Shown here: positions 4,275 to 25,192 of the stretch, one piece after another
Position numbering within the stretch: position 1 is the first letter of the stretch
Layout of the letters: every line of letters starts with the position of its first letter
Assembly: GCA_031273325.1 (NCBI GenBank)
Contig: JAISSB010000060.1
Location: forward strand, 1 to 53,455
DNA length: 53,455 nt
Direction: 5' to 3'
From: Treponema sp.
Lineage (GTDB): Bacteria > Spirochaetota > Spirochaetia > Treponematales > Breznakiellaceae
Notes under the pieces: model-generated
What the model saw: only the letters and a program-made list of their open reading frames with translations
What the model was told of the DNA's origin: nothing
Databases searched by the model: none
Translations under genes and position numbers: made by a program

Positions 4275-5753
4275 ATGAAATTAATTATTAAATTAATGGG
4301 TTTAACAGTGCTTACGGCGCTGTTTTTCAGCGCTTGCTTACTTGAAGACCCATTTGATCCCGGTACCAGTACTCCCGGTACTCCTAGTACTCCCACTCCC
4401 CAATCCGGAGTCTACGTTGGACTCATTACCTTTGCCGGTAATGCAACAGATTGGACGAACGGTCCGATTTATCTTGATCTCTCCAATCGAAACAAGATTA
4501 TTGACTGGATAGACACCGCGTATGCATCTACTCAAAATGGAACTGCGCTTTTCTATGCTGTGCATAAAGCTTTTGCTCAATTGACTGCAAACGAATCTCA
4601 ACTGCCCGCTGACCTTGAAAAGGTAAATGTCGTTACGTTTACCGACGGATTAGACACCAGCTCTTATGGAGCTTCACGAGATAATCCTATTGAAGATAAA
4701 GTAAAGGTAGAAGATGCTGACTATCCACCGTATATCCAACAGCAAATTAACAGCAGACAAATCAAAGGAAAGCCAATCACTGCCTATTCAATTGGAGTAA
4801 AGGGAAATGATGTAGACAATGATACTGCTTTCATAAACAATTTAAATAACATTGCAAGCGCGAATAATGCCAATGTATTGGACGATTTTACTACAGTACA
4901 AAATACCTTTACAGACATTGCAAGTAACATGAATATCGTCACCGTGACTTCAAGATTTACTGTGGTAACAACAAAGTTAAGTCCCGGAACTAAAGTCCGG
5001 ATGGTTTTTGATAATCCGACGAATGCCATAAATTCTACATCATATCTTGAAGGTACCATAGCGGATTCTGGCGGATATTCGCTCACAGATATCGAATATA
5101 CTGGACTCAATTCTTTAACGGGGAGGGGGCCGGTAGCAGGAACAGAAAAAGGAACGGAAGTTAGTTTCATAATTAACGGTTTGAGTATTGATTTAACGAA
5201 GATAACTCCACAGCAATATTTGTATAAAAATGATTCAAATGGCTGGACTTTAAATAGTGAATATAGAACGGACAGTGCGGTTTCTACCACCGTTGAAAAA
5301 CATTCTTCCGTTGTATATATCGTGCTTGATACAAGTTCTTCGCTGAATGCAAATGTTGGAGATGTAAAAGAAGCGGCAAAATTGTTTGTTCATTTGTTAT
5401 ACAATCAATCAATAGCAGGGGATAATCCGTCCAGCCCTCTCCCAAGCGATAGTGCTATTATTAACATTCGAAATAATAGCGATAAAAAAATACTGTCATG
5501 GGCAGTGTATGACGCGATTTATACTACTGTCGTACATTCCGGCGGTGAAATTGCTATAAATGACAATCGACAAATATCGGTAAATCCGGGGGCATACTAC
5601 GTCAATGTACAAATTGCTCAGCCTGATCCAATTAATCCTGAATATTTTCAGTTCAGTTTCTACTCTCCTCCTGAAGATGATACTAACTTTAGTCTCATAA
5701 GTGGCGAAACGAAAATTTTGAACTTTAACAGAGGCACTGAAGACGATTTCTGA
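4275..5753 (+). CDS. vWA-type lipoprotein with MIDAS motifs in permuted order
   Basis: A lipoprotein signal peptide ends FFSAC (Cys21), followed by a Ser/Thr/Pro-rich linker (22-44). Residues 45-220 look like the later part of a von Willebrand factor A domain: VGLITFAG, a GTAL turn (89-92) and VVTFTDGLD (119-127), the usual second and third metal-site motifs. The first motif, DxSxS, is not before them; instead VVYIVLDTSSSLNAN occurs at about 346-360. A middle domain (225-335) is unidentified. The start at 4275 has AAGGA upstream and gives a clean signal peptide; the earlier ATG at 4239 does not. Probably envelope-anchored; ligand unknown. Confidence 0.8.
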   Translation: MKLIIKLMGLTVLTALFFSACLLEDPFDPGTSTPGTPSTPTPQSGVYVGLITFAGNATDWTNGPIYLDLSNRNKIIDWIDTAYASTQNGTALFYAVHKAFAQLTANESQLPADLEKVNVVTFTDGLDTSSYGASRDNPIEDKVKVEDADYPPYIQQQINSRQIKGKPITAYSIGVKGNDVDNDTAFINNLNNIASANNANVLDDFTTVQNTFTDIASNMNIVTVTSRFTVVTTKLSPGTKVRMVFDNPTNAINSTSYLEGTIADSGGYSLTDIEYTGLNSLTGRGPVAGTEKGTEVSFIINGLSIDLTKITPQQYLYKNDSNGWTLNSEYRTDSAVSTTVEKHSSVVYIVLDTSSSLNANVGDVKEAAKLFVHLLYNQSIAGDNPSSPLPSDSAIINIRNNSDKKILSWAVYDAIYTTVVHSGGEIAINDNRQISVNPGAYYVNVQIAQPDPINPEYFQFSFYSPPEDDTNFSLISGETKILNFNRGTEDDF

Positions 5754-5803
5754 TCCCAATTAAGCTAGTTGTTTAAACTAATTTTCTTCGCTATCATGAC
5801 AGT

Positions 5804-6466
5804 GTGATAGCGATTTTTTTATTTGTGGTTTCTTTACCGCTTTTTGGGCAGGACATTGTTACCGCTGAACGGTATCTTGAGATGGTTTCTCAACGGTATA
5901 CGAGCATTCAGGATTATGAAGCAAAGATTAATATACGGTCGGGAACAACGGAGATGACGGGAACGGTGGCGCATGTTGCCCCGTCTTTCCTTCGGCTTGA
6001 TTTTACCCGTCCCGCGAATCAGGTGATTGTCTTCAATGGGGACCAACTCACGGTCTATCTTCCGGAATATCAAGCAGTGCTTAATCAAGCGGTAACCGAA
6101 GCAAATCGGAATTCAAGCGCTTCATTGGCAACGGCGCGAGGCTTGAGTATGCTCCGGCGGAATTATACGACGTCATATCTGACCGGTCCTGATTCTCAAC
6201 CGTTAGAAACGGGCTCAAAAGAACTCGTGATAAAACTGAAGCTGTCGCGGCGCTCGTCCTCTGAAGGGTTCCGGGAATTAACGCTGAGTATTGACCCGGA
6301 GACCTACTTAATTCGGCGGATTGAAGGGAGAACGGTAACGGATACATTGGTCCGCTTTGATTTTAGTGCTGTTAAAATAAATCAAGGAATTCCTGAACAA
6401 CGGTTTATGTACGATTCGCCCAGTTCGGCAAGCATGTACAATAATTTTTTGTTCCGCAATCAATGA
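5804..6466 (+). CDS. LolA-like outer-membrane lipoprotein carrier / sorting protein
   Basis: 220 residues with a signal peptide (FLFVVSLPLFGQ). The mature part matches the LolA/DUF4292 beta-sheet fold: YLEMVSQRYTSIQDYEAKI near the start, SFLRLDFTRPANQVIVFNGD in the middle, and LSIDPETYLIRRIEG near the end. LolA shuttles lipoproteins across the periplasm. It starts at GTG 5804; no ATG is available in frame, and the ATG at 5796 in another frame stops at once. It is followed after 7 bases by the ferredoxin gene, so it may head that operon. Assignment is to the fold; the role is inferred. Confidence 0.75.
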   Translation: MIAIFLFVVSLPLFGQDIVTAERYLEMVSQRYTSIQDYEAKINIRSGTTEMTGTVAHVAPSFLRLDFTRPANQVIVFNGDQLTVYLPEYQAVLNQAVTEANRNSSASLATARGLSMLRRNYTTSYLTGPDSQPLETGSKELVIKLKLSRRSSSEGFRELTLSIDPETYLIRRIEGRTVTDTLVRFDFSAVKINQGIPEQRFMYDSPSSASMYNNFLFRNQ

Positions 6467-18022: not shown

Positions 18023-18222
18023 ATGGAAGCTGAAAAAGCTCACGTGAGAACTATCAAAACTACACTCCCGCTCACTGAAGATACAGAAAACCTTCATTCT
18101 CGACCCGATGAACCACGCAGTACAAGTGTTTGTACTGTTGTTTGCACACGAACAGCACGCAACTTCCTATCTCTATCGGTGCAGCTAGGTACAATTCTCT
18201 GGGCTTGTCCCAGAACTCATAG
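18023..18222 (+). mobile_element. Internally deleted tnpB mini-element (5' fragment joined to right end)
   Basis: ATG 18023 opens MEAEKAHVRTIKTTLPLTED, a TnpB-like start. After a frameshift the plus strand reads TFILDPMNHAVQVFVLLFAH, which lines up with TFILDTINQTKKVFNLFVQL on the minus strand at 28.5 kb; the DNA block ACCTTCATTCTCGAC is identical. About 60 codons in, it jumps to GTGCAGCTAGGTACAATTCT and the hairpin TCTGGG-CTTGT-CCCAGA, the right end. The result is a 200-bp MITE-like element that fills the gap in front of the WD40 gene and contributes the ORF extension upstream of that gene. Confidence 0.75.
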
Positions 18223-18235
18223 AAGGAGAGTATAT

Positions 18236-19642
18236 ATGGATTCATTAGAAGACCTTCTGTTCGGCAATGCCCAAGAAGAAGCATTGAAACGGGAAAAGGC
18301 AGCACGGGAAGAAGCAGAAGAGAAAGCGCAAAAAGCAGAGGCTAAAGCGCAAAAAGCGGAAGAAGAAATACGAAAACTGAAAGCAGAAATCGAGGCACAA
18401 AAAGCAGAAATAAAAGCCGCTGCAGAAAAGGCCGCAGGAGAAAATGCCCAGAAGGCAGTGTGGGAACTAACTGCACAGAAAGAAATGGATCCGTTAGAAG
18501 ACCTTCTGTTCGGCAAAGCCAAAGATGAAGCAGCGGAACGGGAGAAAGCCGAAGACGAAACACGAAGACTGAAAGCAGAAACCGAGGCGCGAAAAGCAGA
18601 AGAAGCTCTAAAAAATGCAAATGACAGAGTACTAAAAGCAGAAGCCGAAACGCGAAAAGCAGAAGAGAAAGCGCAAAAGGAAGCAGCAGAACGGGAAAAG
18701 GCCGCACGAGAGGAAGCACAAAGACAATGGGAAGAGGATGCAGAAAGCGGACAGGAGTTGCGTACCCTTACGGGTCATCAACAAGATATTAATTCAGTAG
18801 CGTATAGTCCTGATGGGCGGCGTATCGTGTCGGGGTCTGATGATAAAACTATCAAGATATGGGATGCGGAAAGCGGACAGGAGTTGCGTACCCTTACGGG
18901 TCATCAATCTCATGTTTTATCAGTAGCGTATAGTCCTGATGGGCGGTTTATCGTTTCGGGGTCTGATGATCAAACTATCAAGATATGGGATGCGGAAAGC
19001 GGACAGAATCTGCGTACTCTTAGAGGTCATCAATATGATGTTAGATCAGTAGCGTATAGTCCGGATGGGCGGTTTATCGTTTCGGGGTCTTGGGATAACA
19101 CCATCAAGATATGGAATGCAGAAAGCGGACGGGACCTGCGTACCCTTACGGGTCATCAATCTCATGTTAGATCAGTAGCGTATAGTCCTGATGGGCGGTT
19201 TATCGTTTCGGGGTCTTGGGATAACACCATCAAGATATGGGATGCAGAAAGCGGACAGAATCTGCGTACCCTTACAGGTCATCAAAATTCTGTTTGGTCA
19301 GTGGCGTATAGTCCGGATGGGCGGTTTATCGTTTCGGGGTCTGGTGATAAAACCATCAAGATATGGAATGCAGAAAGCGGACGGGATCTGCGTACCCTTA
19401 CCGGTCATAAATCTGATGTTCTTTCAGTAGGGTATAGTCCTGATGGGCGGTTTATCGTTTCGGGGTCTTATGATAAAACCATCAAGATATGGGATGCAAA
19501 AAGCGGACAGAATCTGCGTACCCTTACAGGTCATCAAAATTCTGTTTGGTCAGTAGCGTATAGTCCTGATGGGCGGTTTATCGTTTCGGGGTCTTATGAT
19601 AAAACCATCAAGATATGGCGGAAGGGAGTTGCGTACCCTTAG
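18236..19642 (+). CDS. WD40 beta-propeller protein with duplicated coiled-coil head
   Basis: About 468 residues from ATG 18236, which has GAAGGAGAG upstream. Two copies of a head module, M-D-x-L-E-D-L-L-F-G plus a Lys/Glu/Ala-rich coiled coil, occupy about 1-82 and 83-165. Seven 42-residue WD40 repeats follow (consensus LRTLTGH..SV.SVAYSPDGRFIVSGS.DKTIKIWD), enough for one closed propeller. Repeats are nearly identical at DNA level, a sign of recent expansion. The frame then breaks by an 11-base deletion and ends RKGVAYP. No signal peptide. A cytoplasmic scaffold is likely; partner unknown. The longer ORF from 18023 is tnpB debris. Confidence 0.85.
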   Translation: MDSLEDLLFGNAQEEALKREKAAREEAEEKAQKAEAKAQKAEEEIRKLKAEIEAQKAEIKAAAEKAAGENAQKAVWELTAQKEMDPLEDLLFGKAKDEAAEREKAEDETRRLKAETEARKAEEALKNANDRVLKAEAETRKAEEKAQKEAAEREKAAREEAQRQWEEDAESGQELRTLTGHQQDINSVAYSPDGRRIVSGSDDKTIKIWDAESGQELRTLTGHQSHVLSVAYSPDGRFIVSGSDDQTIKIWDAESGQNLRTLRGHQYDVRSVAYSPDGRFIVSGSWDNTIKIWNAESGRDLRTLTGHQSHVRSVAYSPDGRFIVSGSWDNTIKIWDAESGQNLRTLTGHQNSVWSVAYSPDGRFIVSGSGDKTIKIWNAESGRDLRTLTGHKSDVLSVGYSPDGRFIVSGSYDKTIKIWDAKSGQNLRTLTGHQNSVWSVAYSPDGRFIVSGSYDKTIKIWRKGVAYP

Positions 19643-21003: not shown

Positions 21004-21345
21004 TTTGCACCTTGCGGAAACCTTTAACACTATGCAGCAAGTCATGTGCATACCTGCAAAAAGCTTGCTACACTCTGTAGCAAGTCATGTGCGCCTTGCA
21101 AAAAGCTTGCTACACTATGGAGCAAGTCATGTGCACACCTGCAAGAAGCTTGCTACACTCTGTATCAAGTCATGTGCGCCTTGCAAAAAGCTTGCTACAC
21201 TATGCAGCAAGTCATGTGCGCCTTGCAAAAGGCTTGCTACACTCTGTATCAAGTCATGTGCACCTTGCAAGAAACATTCTGCACTATGCAGTACGTCATG
21301 TGCATACCTGCAAGAACCTTTAACACTCTGTAGCACGTCTCTCAC
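21004..21345. repeat. 42/43-bp tandem repeat array, about 7-8 units
   Basis: CAAGTCATGTGC recurs at 21038, 21081, 21123, 21166, 21208 and 21250, with a variant near 21292, so units alternate between 42 and 43 bp. Each has (T)GTGC(A/G)CCTTGCAA, AAGCTTGCTACACT and a short ATGCAG or CTGTAT. The core TGCACCTTGCAA is the reverse complement of the TTGCAAGGTGCA core of the 41-bp arrays, so the arrays may be distantly related. Open frames across it are artefacts. Confidence 0.9.
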
Positions 21346-21515
21346 TACCTCCTTCAGGGGTTGCTGCATAGTGTATCAAGGCTCACAATACTTCATCAGA
21401 GCTTATCAAATCTCTGGGGACAGACCTCCCTAACAAAGTCAGGTTACCCTTGCCTTTCATGCATATCGGATATACTATAGAAAAAAACCTCGTATGGAGT
21501 TTTCATTATATGGAG

Positions 21516-21529
21516 TTCGCGCATGCGCG
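21516..21529. promoter_or_regulatory. 14-bp perfect palindrome in a gene leader
   Basis: TCGCGCATGCGCGA is perfectly self-complementary and extends to 20 bases (21513-21532 region) with one G-T pair. It lies between a TATACT box (about 21470) and the AAAGGAG of the gene starting at 21546. It could be an operator or, as RNA, a hairpin close to the ribosome site. Confidence 0.6.
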
Positions 21530-21545
21530 AGCTAAAGGAGACTAT

Positions 21546-21795
21546 ATGAAAGAGAAAGCTTGTAGTTATCCCCAAGCTAAGAAATTAGTTAATTATCCCC
21601 CCCCCCCCCCGGCCGAAACTACCTCGCATAAGAATCTCGTCACAATCGGCACACTTTGTCTGTGTGCTGCTATTCTTCGGCTGTGCCGATAAAGAAACAC
21701 CAATAACACCTGAATACCAAGTAACGCTTGATACTGACGGAGGAACTACGATCCCCTCACAGACGATAGTCGAGGGCGATACCGTTTTGGACTAG
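21546..21795 (+). pseudogene. Truncated lipoprotein gene with a C14 tract, out of phase here
   Basis: ATG 21546 follows AAAGGAG by five bases. The first frame runs MKEKACSYPQAKKLVNY into a poly-C tract and stops at 21690. With one C fewer (13, or also 10 or 16) the frame continues through a hydrophobic stretch and lipobox-like VLLFFGCAD, then YQVTLDTDGG, IPSQTIVEGDTVLD and stop at 21793. That tail is the first half of an InlB/Listeria-Bacteroides repeat, so the gene is also cut short, about 40 bases before the GC-rich pair. It is either a phase-variable surface lipoprotein that has lost its body or a decaying one. Confidence 0.65.
21597..21610 (+). repeat. Homopolymeric tract of 14 C
   Basis: Fourteen consecutive C lie inside the start of the lipoprotein gene at 21546. 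Treponemes are known to vary homopolymer tracts by slipped-strand mispairing; a change of one base here would join two otherwise separate frames. Confidence 0.9.
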
Positions 21796-21835
21796 CGATC
21801 TAAAATCAATGAGGTTGTGGTGAAAGGAGGATTAC

Positions 21836-22978
21836 ATGAACAAGTTTGTGGGTTGTATGGGGGTTGTTGTTTTTCTTGCGGTTTTTGGCGGATGTTTCGC
21901 CGGAGGCACCGGAGGGGCTCAAACCGCGGTGAACCAGGAACAGGCGGCACTTTTGAAAAAGTATATGCCCCAGGCGGCAGCGGATGGGACGGTGAAGGTG
22001 GCGGTGGTCCGCAATCTTTCCGCGGGCGATCACACGAAGCAGTTTCTTGAGGGCTGTGTCTCTGAGGGTCAAGCGCTGGGGTTTACCGTGGACACCTTTA
22101 TTACCGACGGGGATGGGGAACGGTGTCAGGCGGCCCTGGCGGAGGTGATTGGCCGGGACTATGACGGTCTTATTCTCTCTCATGGGGAGGGGTCGTATAC
22201 CTACAACGCCCTGAAACCGGCGGTGGACAAGGGCATGGCGGTGGTTACGTTTGACTCGGCTCCCTACCGGAACGGCGATCTGGACGGGGAGCTTCTCAAG
22301 GGGGTAACGAGTACCGTTCAGGACGACGCGAAACTTGCCTATCTGTCGTTGCAGGCCTTGGTTACGAGTTTTGAACCGGGGCAGCGGCCCCTGCGGGTTA
22401 TCCGGGCGTGGATGGGGCCGGGGGTTCCGCCGCTGGACCGCCGGCAGCGTACCTACGATCAGTATGTCCGGGCAGGGACGATTGTTGAGCTTGCTTTGGT
22501 GGCTCCCAGTGATTTCGCCGATCCCCGGAACGGCACACAGGCCGCGCTGGCCGCGCTGCTTCCGCAGTATCCCGAGGGGACGGTGGACGCGATTTGGGGT
22601 TCCTACGACGAGCTGGCAAAGGGCTGCCTTGACGCTCTTGACGCCGCCGGGCGGAAGGACATCAAACTTATTTCCATTGATATTTCCAACGAGGACATAC
22701 GCCTGATGGTTTCTCACGGGGATGTCTGGGTGTCTACTACCGCGGCGGATCCCAAACTGATGGGTATTACCGATATGCGTATTGCCGCGGCGAAGCTGGC
22801 CGGTGAGTTTACCCCGGACACGTATAGTTTTGACGTACAAGAAATAAAGACCGCGGTGCTGAACAGTTCTATCACCATGGCGGACATCGCGACGGTGCGC
22901 TACGGCTGGGGGGCGGAAAAGGGCGTGTTTGACCGGTACGGCTGGATGGCGGACCTAAAAGACGCTGGACTTAGGTAA
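21836..22978 (+). CDS. Sugar-type periplasmic binding lipoprotein (peripla_BP_4 family)
   Basis: 380 residues. Lipoprotein signal ending VFGGC (Cys20), then a type-I periplasmic binding fold: VKVAVVRNLSAGDHTKQFLEGCVSEGQALGF, DYDGLILSHG, MAVVTFDS, then VDAIWGSYDELAKGCLDAL and IKLISIDISNEDIRLM in the second lobe. These bind ribose-like sugars or autoinducer-2. No ABC ATPase or permease is nearby; the next gene, 12 bases on, is a chemoreceptor, so the protein may present its ligand to that receptor. AAAGGAGG precedes the ATG. Markedly GC-rich with strong G/C third positions, unlike flanking genes. Confidence 0.85.
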   Translation: MNKFVGCMGVVVFLAVFGGCFAGGTGGAQTAVNQEQAALLKKYMPQAAADGTVKVAVVRNLSAGDHTKQFLEGCVSEGQALGFTVDTFITDGDGERCQAALAEVIGRDYDGLILSHGEGSYTYNALKPAVDKGMAVVTFDSAPYRNGDLDGELLKGVTSTVQDDAKLAYLSLQALVTSFEPGQRPLRVIRAWMGPGVPPLDRRQRTYDQYVRAGTIVELALVAPSDFADPRNGTQAALAALLPQYPEGTVDAIWGSYDELAKGCLDALDAAGRKDIKLISIDISNEDIRLMVSHGDVWVSTTAADPKLMGITDMRIAAAKLAGEFTPDTYSFDVQEIKTAVLNSSITMADIATVRYGWGAEKGVFDRYGWMADLKDAGLR

Positions 22979-22990
22979 GGAGGTTGTCCT

Positions 22991-25192
22991 ATGAAATTAA
23001 AGATTCGGTTAAGTCTTATAGTTATCGCCATTGTGGTAGCGGTCATCGCGGTTTTCGCCGGGGTGCTGCTGTTCCAGGCCCGCACACTCCAGGAAAACGC
23101 GGCTGAGGAGAATCTCAAAAACCTTGCGGGCCTTGCGGCGGCGGAAGCGAAGGACGATTTTGAGCGGTATCTGCATACGGTTACGGCCCTCGCGGCAGTT
23201 ATGAACGGCTATGAACACATGGAGCCGGGGGTGCGGCGTACGAACTACGATGAGATGCTGCGCTCCCTTATGGAAGCTTCCCTTGAATTCTTCAGCCTCT
23301 ATACGGTGTGGAAGCCGAACACCCTCGACAGCCGCGCCGGAGAGCTTGCGGGAACAGAGGGTACGGACTCAAGCGGGGAGTATATGACCTGGTTTGTTAG
23401 GCGGCAGGGGTATTTCATGGAAACGCGGGCCTATGGGGAAAACCCTGCAGCCTACCGCTCCCTCCTCAACCGTCTGGACACGATGCACACGCCGGCGGTC
23501 AGTAATCCCACGGTGGAGGTGCTGAACGGGAAGCAGCTCTACCTGGTGAACATTGAAGCGCCTATTATCCGGGACCGGGATCAGGCGGTTGTTGGCGCGG
23601 TGGGGATAACCTTTGATATTGCCCGCACGCAGGAGTTTCTGATTCAGCAGCCCCGGCCATACGGGGGACATTCGGGGGCGTATTTGACGATTTACGCCAA
23701 TGACGGCACGATAGCTGCCCACCCTGACGGGGCGCTTATCGGGAAGAACTACCGGGAGATTATGGCGGAGCGTATCGGGGACGCGGGGCTGCGTATGATT
23801 GCCCAATCCCTCAGCACCGGAAAGCCGGGCTGGAGCGAACACAACGGCCTGTTCTTCCAAAGCTACCCGTTTTATGTGGAGCAAAACAATCCTCCCTGGA
23901 CAATCATCGTTGCGGTTCCCACGGCGGTCGTGTTTGCAGCGGGTACGGTTATGACCCGGTTTACGGTTATATTCGCCTTTGCCGCGATTATCCTGTCCGG
24001 GGCTATCATCTTCCTCGCGGCGGCACAGATTGCCAAGCCTATTATGTATATCTCCCGCTCACTGAAGGATATTTCCGAGGGTGCTGGGGATTTGACGCAG
24101 TCCATCGCCCTTGAAAGCCGTGATGAAACCGGCGATCTTGCCCGGTATTTTAACCATACCCTGGGGAAGATACAGGCCTTGGTTATGACTATTAAGCGCC
24201 AGGCTACCGCGCTTTTTGATATAGGGAATTCTCTGGCGACGAATATGCATCAAACCGCGGGCGCGGTCAACCAGATTACCGCTACTATCCAGCGTATTAA
24301 AAAGCAAGTGGTGAACCAGTCCGCGAGCATAAGCGAAACGAACGCCGCTATGGAACAGATTACCGCCAGTATCGACCGGCTCAACGCGCATATCGATTAC
24401 CAGAATGAAAGTGTCGCTGAGTCTTCCGCGTCAATCGAGCAGATGCTTGCTAATATCGATTCGGTTACTCAGACACTGATGAAGAACGTGAATAAGGTGA
24501 AAGAGCTTACGGAGGCTTCAGGAATCGGGCGCGGAGGTCTTCAGAATGTCGTGCTGGATATTCAGGGGATTGCCCGGGAATCTGAAGGGCTTCTTGAAAT
24601 CAACGCGGTGATGGAAAACATCGCGAGCCAAACGAATCTCCTGTCTATGAATGCGGCTATCGAAGCGGCTCACGCCGGGGAAGCGGGGAAAGGCTTTGCT
24701 GTGGTGGCTTCTGAGATACAGAAACTTGCAGTTTCTTCCGCAAATCAGTCCAAGACTATCAGTACGGTGCTCAAAAAGATAAAAGGTTCTATTGACAAAA
24801 TGACGAAGTCTACGGGCGAAGTATTAAACAAGTTTGAAGCTATCGACTCAGGGGTGCAAGTTGTATTCCAGCAGGAAGAGCAGATCAGGAACGCTATGGA
24901 AGAGCAGGGTAACGGCAGCCGGCAGATACTGGAAACTATAGGTCACTTGCGGGATATAACCCGGCAGGTGAAGGCCGGCTCGCTCGAAATGCTTATCGGG
25001 AGCCGGGAGGTTATCAAAGAAAGCGGCAATCTTGAAAAGGTGAGTCAGGGGATTGTCAATGGGATGAATGAGATGGTGAGCGGCGCGGAGCAGATAAACG
25101 CCGCGGTGGACCGGGTCAACACCATAAGCAGCAATAACAAAGAAAACATCGAGATTCTCGTCCAGGAAGTCTCCCAGTTTAAAGTAGAGTAA
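22991..25192 (+). CDS. Methyl-accepting chemotaxis protein with Cache sensor
   Basis: 733 residues. TM1 at about 7-29, a periplasmic dCache-like sensor at about 30-310 ([32 protein letters not shown]), TM2 at about 313-350, HAMP ([28 protein letters not shown]), then a long methyl-accepting coiled coil. The hairpin tip [39 protein letters not shown] binds CheA/CheW. AAGGAGG lies seven bases before the ATG. It pairs with the binding lipoprotein upstream, shares its high GC, and is paralogous to the receptor at 51.8 kb. Confidence 0.95.

Follow-up and report, generated by a model that had tools for sequence, protein, structure and literature searches.

A truncated poly-C lipoprotein module as a candidate switchable leader of a chemotaxis operon in a termite-gut Treponema, and poly-C leader ORFs in related genomes

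In Streptococcus gallolyticus, a repeat within a leader ORF sets the reading phase at the pilus loci pil1 and pil3; short leader products stop 5′ of a terminator and long ones end in it or next to it (PMC3894217). As far as the open-access literature that we searched goes, repeat-driven leader-peptide attenuation was known before only from these two pilus loci of one streptococcus, and phase variation in termite-gut treponemes is not reported there. A homopolymer that switches the frame near the start of a surface gene is known from the intragenic poly-C and poly-G tracts of Neisseria, Campylobacter and Treponema pallidum (PMC11868660, PMC5084427), and in the RepG/tlpB system of Helicobacter pylori the mRNA of a chemoreceptor operon carries a homopolymer in its untranslated leader, a G-repeat on which a small RNA acts (PMC8295292). 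The locus studied here lies in a 53,455-nt stretch of Treponema sp. DNA (the window) and shares traits with all three. Like the intragenic systems it carries a homopolymer that changes the frame near a surface-gene start, but in this case the tract occupies part of the leader, before the codons of a lipoprotein signal peptide, within a multi-copy module with exchangeable bodies. Like tlpB it precedes a chemoreceptor operon, but the repeat sits in a leader reading frame. The pil1 and pil3 repeats are GCAGA pentamers at two loci in Firmicutes, whereas here the repeat is homopolymeric C, at many loci per genome, in spirochaetes, and the treponeme leaders often have a stop/start overlap with the next gene; furthermore, unlike pil1, the window locus has no convincing terminator.

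The window tract is a C14 run at 21597-21610 (plus strand, as are all features below) that gives polyproline codons, filling codons 18-21 of the leader and positions one and two of codon 22. It is the sole C or G run of at least 8 in the window; from the window's base composition, C/G runs of at least 12 are expected 0.001 times per window and 0.04 times per genome. In the 1.8 Mb genome, 39 poly-C tracts (C12-C15) were counted against this expectation of about 0.04, their lengths being as assembled and possibly off, while A/T runs of 12 numbered zero in the same genome. The earlier note had placed the C14 in leader codons and proposed a slipped-strand switch; the placement was borne out, and the tract is a repeat far beyond chance length at a frame-changing position. 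The 39 long C runs near gene starts probably act as on/off switches of genes through slippage during copying; the window tract would be hypermutable. For six of the 39, a contig end is no more than 130 nt away (0.6 expected), an excess that is only suggestive of variation in tract length. L019 and L025, two contig ends each breaking off within a C tract, were considered as halves of one gene; this was rejected, the flanks being of different sub-types.

Around the tract, the remaining elements that the earlier note had named were all found in place. A promoter-like region (21450-21480) contains TATACTATAG at 21471-21480 with its TATACT box; a strict sigma-70 scan of the window module returned no site, and the assignment as promoter-like therefore rests on conservation in 11 paralogous modules. 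It is followed by a first 5′UTR hairpin (21484-21503), the stem of which is partly degraded in the window copy, and by a second hairpin (21517-21530), the perfect 14-bp palindrome TCGCGCATGCGCGA, whose enclosing stem has a dG of -11.9 and which stands just 5′ of the Shine-Dalgarno (SD) sequence AAAGGAG (21534-21540). The leader codons MKEKACSYPQAKKLVNY (21546-21596) begin with the ATG at 21546. With 14 C the frame encodes 48 aa and stops at 21690-21692, and with 13 C it encodes 82 aa, passing through the lipobox-like VLLFFGC (21664-21684, in this phase only) and the start of an InlB B-repeat (Flg_new, 21715-21784) to a stop at 21793-21795, 40 nt 5′ of the next start codon. The earlier note was right about both frames; its "half" InlB-type repeat proved to be the first third, after which homology ends. 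The window copy differs from its paralogs by a +1 insertion within the signal-peptide coding stretch: the first part of the ancestral signal peptide is read in the C14 phase and the last part in the C13 phase, and thus no phase reads it whole. The 82-aa C13 product could itself be exported and lipidated as a small phase-variable lipoprotein, given that its open frame carries VLLFFGC, but we consider this very improbable, as the hydrophobic core is broken by the insertion, the InlB repeat is reduced to about one third, and a similar short paralog was not seen. Between tract and stop, a terminator-like hairpin, CGGCACAC-loop-GTGTGCTG (21647-21669, dG -11.6), has a poor U tail, where an attenuator would need a strong intrinsic terminator masked in some phases. 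The stem of this internal hairpin is largely conserved in the family described below; since the U tail is weak, an attenuator role for it is not relied on.

Twelve of the 39 tracts lie in modules of the window type, which comprise the promoter box, two UTR hairpins, SD, a MKEKACSYP..KKLVN leader and the tract. All 11 family copies that have the region keep its promoter box, the pair of UTR hairpins and the SD, and the window copy shows the full series up to its C tract. In intact copies the tract (C12-C15 among the paralogs) and signal peptide lead into lipoproteins of about 380-870 aa with InlB repeat and BspA-type LRR; in 7 of the 12 copies the frame stays open through a body of at least about 350 aa, and the intact bodies tested match Flg_new and LRR_5 in Pfam. 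The window segment homologous to the 5′ ends of these paralogs extends over 21444-21784 by blastn (best L014, 81.6%). As homology ends one third into the InlB repeat, the "stump of a switchable gene" in the earlier note is an apt description, and full-length paralogs that share its leader and tract occur in the same genome. The window copy lacks any LRR and holds no complete Flg_new plus LRR_5 body, these being present in the paralogs only, and no phase opens a full-length lipoprotein. With at most 82 aa and homology ending at 21784, it is, as read from the sequence, a decayed and truncated relic of the family and no working member. The same note had also offered a role as recombination donor, for which nothing was found beyond multi-copy homology. 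A silent cassette recombining with full-length paralogs would be in keeping with identities of about 76-84% over roughly 140-350 bp and with one body swap, at L039, where a window-type module is joined to an unrelated FIVAR-domain body, showing that modules and bodies have been exchanged; a mosaic tract was not shown, however, and the stump would donate leader sequence only, which makes this account very unlikely. Across 200 genomes of the family (termite-gut treponemes, probably the Breznakiellaceae) the leader pattern of these modules was found in the own genome only, it had no match in the GTDB contig collection, and the stump DNA had none among plasmids. Most of the modules have a repeated element, GGGGACAGACCTC, on their 5′ side, e.g., at 21416-21428 in the window beside the left end of the homology, and this could be a recombination site. 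Further 5′, the window holds about seven copies of a 42-bp tandem repeat (21006-21339) just ahead of the module and, at 18023-19642, a gene for a 539-aa WD40-repeat-dominated protein scoring highly against beta-propeller profiles of eukaryotic proteins.

The stump stands directly 5′ of a sugar-sensing operon consisting of a solute-binding lipoprotein gene (Peripla_BP_4, 21836-22978, SD at 21823) and, 12 nt after it, a chemoreceptor gene (HAMP plus MCPsignal, 22991-25192). The closest relative, Treponema sp. Kf353_bin150, has the operon pair twice (83% and 85-86% identity), in both cases without tract or stump, and more distant solute-binding orthologs have no tract upstream. Homology to the relative's solute-binding gene starts around 21811. 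Both Kf353_bin150 copies share an upstream segment, GGTAGATTTTTAT..TTGGAGG..TATATTCTG, which reads as promoter-like; it was searched for in the window and is absent. These sequences show the junctions, the absence of the stump from relatives and the loss of the promoter-like segment seen in the closest one. The simplest history would be that a lipoprotein module recombined into the upstream region of the operon and replaced the usual one. On this basis we propose, with confidence evenly divided for and against, that the lipoprotein 5′ module, cut after 341 bp, is now promoter and switchable leader ORF of the solute-binding/chemoreceptor operon.

Slippage in the C tract would decide in which of the three frames the sequence after the leader codons is read. 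Among the intact paralogs, the complete lipoprotein is open in a single phase, and either other phase ends within about 20-50 codons; in the window copy, a lipoprotein body is open in none of the phases. From its position, the window copy most likely supplies a promoter and a switchable leader ORF to the operon. In the longest phase, ribosomes would come within 40 nt of the solute-binding gene; in the shorter phases an untranslated stretch of 140-200 nt would remain, which in one phase contains the terminator-like hairpin, and output may depend on phase. As at pil1, the leader ORF has an ATG (21546) with an SD and the repeat inside, and the next gene (21836) has an SD of its own. The gap of 40 nt is larger than the stop/start overlaps at other leader loci, and coupling would therefore be weak; furthermore, the open C13 phase is inherited coding sequence, and thus its reach is no independent evidence for leader function. 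The same distance, together with the frameshifted signal peptide, the missing body and the degraded UTR stem, suits the alternative that the stump is an inert relic, a dead lipoprotein gene whose tract has no effect on an operon served by its own unrecognised promoter. Against it, a dead tract should decay, whereas the promoter box, palindrome, SD and long tract are intact, the stretch from 21700 to 21836 yielded no promoter-like site, and the relative's promoter-like segment is missing; we regard the inert relic as a possible but rather doubtful explanation. Should the promoter-and-leader reading of the window hold, a bet-hedging switch that once belonged to a surface antigen would have come to serve nutrient sensing, and this in a mutualistic gut community rather than in a pathogen.

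The 39 tracts of the own genome were grouped by inspection. Besides the 12 window-type modules, 19 lie in short leader ORFs 5′ of genes mostly with their own SD, including genes for small lipoproteins, acyltransferases and a DNA methyltransferase, and two stand directly in the N-terminal codons of other lipoprotein genes, one of which encodes a CotH kinase domain. Three are G tracts within chemoreceptor genes, one is a G tract just after a solute-binding protein signal peptide, and the remaining two fall outside these groups. The chemoreceptor tracts are G13-G14 (L017, L034 and L035), one gene being open across the tract (743 aa) and two interrupted, a mix such as phase-variable chemoreceptors would be expected to give. 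At L021 the G13 (4684-4696) follows the signal peptide of an ABC solute-binding protein, and signal peptide and body differ in frame as assembled. The poly-C leader at 4565 of L030 is 5′ of an N6_N4 DNA methyltransferase gene (5123-6187), a possible phasevarion.

Poly-C leaders in related genomes precede genes for chemoreceptors, an ABC permease, a solute-binding protein and others. In a first set of 26 loci from five genomes (own, G002, G003, G042 and G025), one of the three phases ends between -15 and +8 nt from the downstream start at 11 loci, as compared to 3.0 ± 1.35 in dinucleotide shuffles, with 0 of 2000 shuffles reaching 11; the idea was formed on part of these data, and paralogs among the 26 are not independent. 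A phase reaching within 90 nt of the downstream start was present at 23 of the 26 (13.4 ± 1.6 in shuffles). A second set, from two complete single-contig genomes and examined after the first, used a slightly looser rule for leader starts in that an ATG without SD was allowed; here, a phase ended at the start of the next gene at 7 of 14 loci (2.3 ± 1.27 expected, P = 0.001). In addition, tract and gene are separated at several loci by a strong hairpin followed by a U-rich stretch (dG -24 to -28 at L057, L124, L132 and L188, and -17 at L189); one phase reads through this terminator and at least one other stops before it. The geometry of the pil1 attenuator, which is proven there, recurs at L009, L010, L033, L057, L124, L132, L138, L188 and L189. 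Half of the leader loci in each set have neither a start-adjacent end nor a terminator, and the mechanism is thus not universal. The many C tracts in mRNA 5′ regions, some before chemoreceptors, together with the RepG precedent, also fit a small RNA with a G-rich loop for which tract length tunes the pairing, as RepG does with tlpB; we hold this to be very improbable, since it leaves unexplained why phase ends at downstream starts are commoner than in shuffles.

The leader-ORF result across genomes is stronger than the reading of the window operon. We tentatively suggest, as a view that we would rate below an even chance, that poly-C leader ORFs in termite-gut treponemes form a general, genome-wide system of phase-variable attenuation and coupling for lipoproteins, transporters, chemoreceptors and a DNA methyltransferase, that the module can be captured by new operons, and that the sugar-sensing chemotaxis operon of the window came under such a switch. 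An abundant symbiont family whose members are mostly uncultured would then have homopolymer versions of a leader attenuator at many loci, two complete genomes included, and in these leader attenuation could be tested. C runs of at least 12 were present in 182 of the 200 genomes of the family and in 27 of 117 genomes sampled from the rest of the class, there mostly one or two each. Three genomes of the family, G063, G025 and G082, carry 265, 174 and 135 poly-C tracts, counts that exceed the 115 phase-variable genes reported for N. meningitidis (PMC5084427). The C tracts at L181, L186 and L192, in single-contig genomes, are 45, 61 and 40 bases long, which is unusually long for bacteria.
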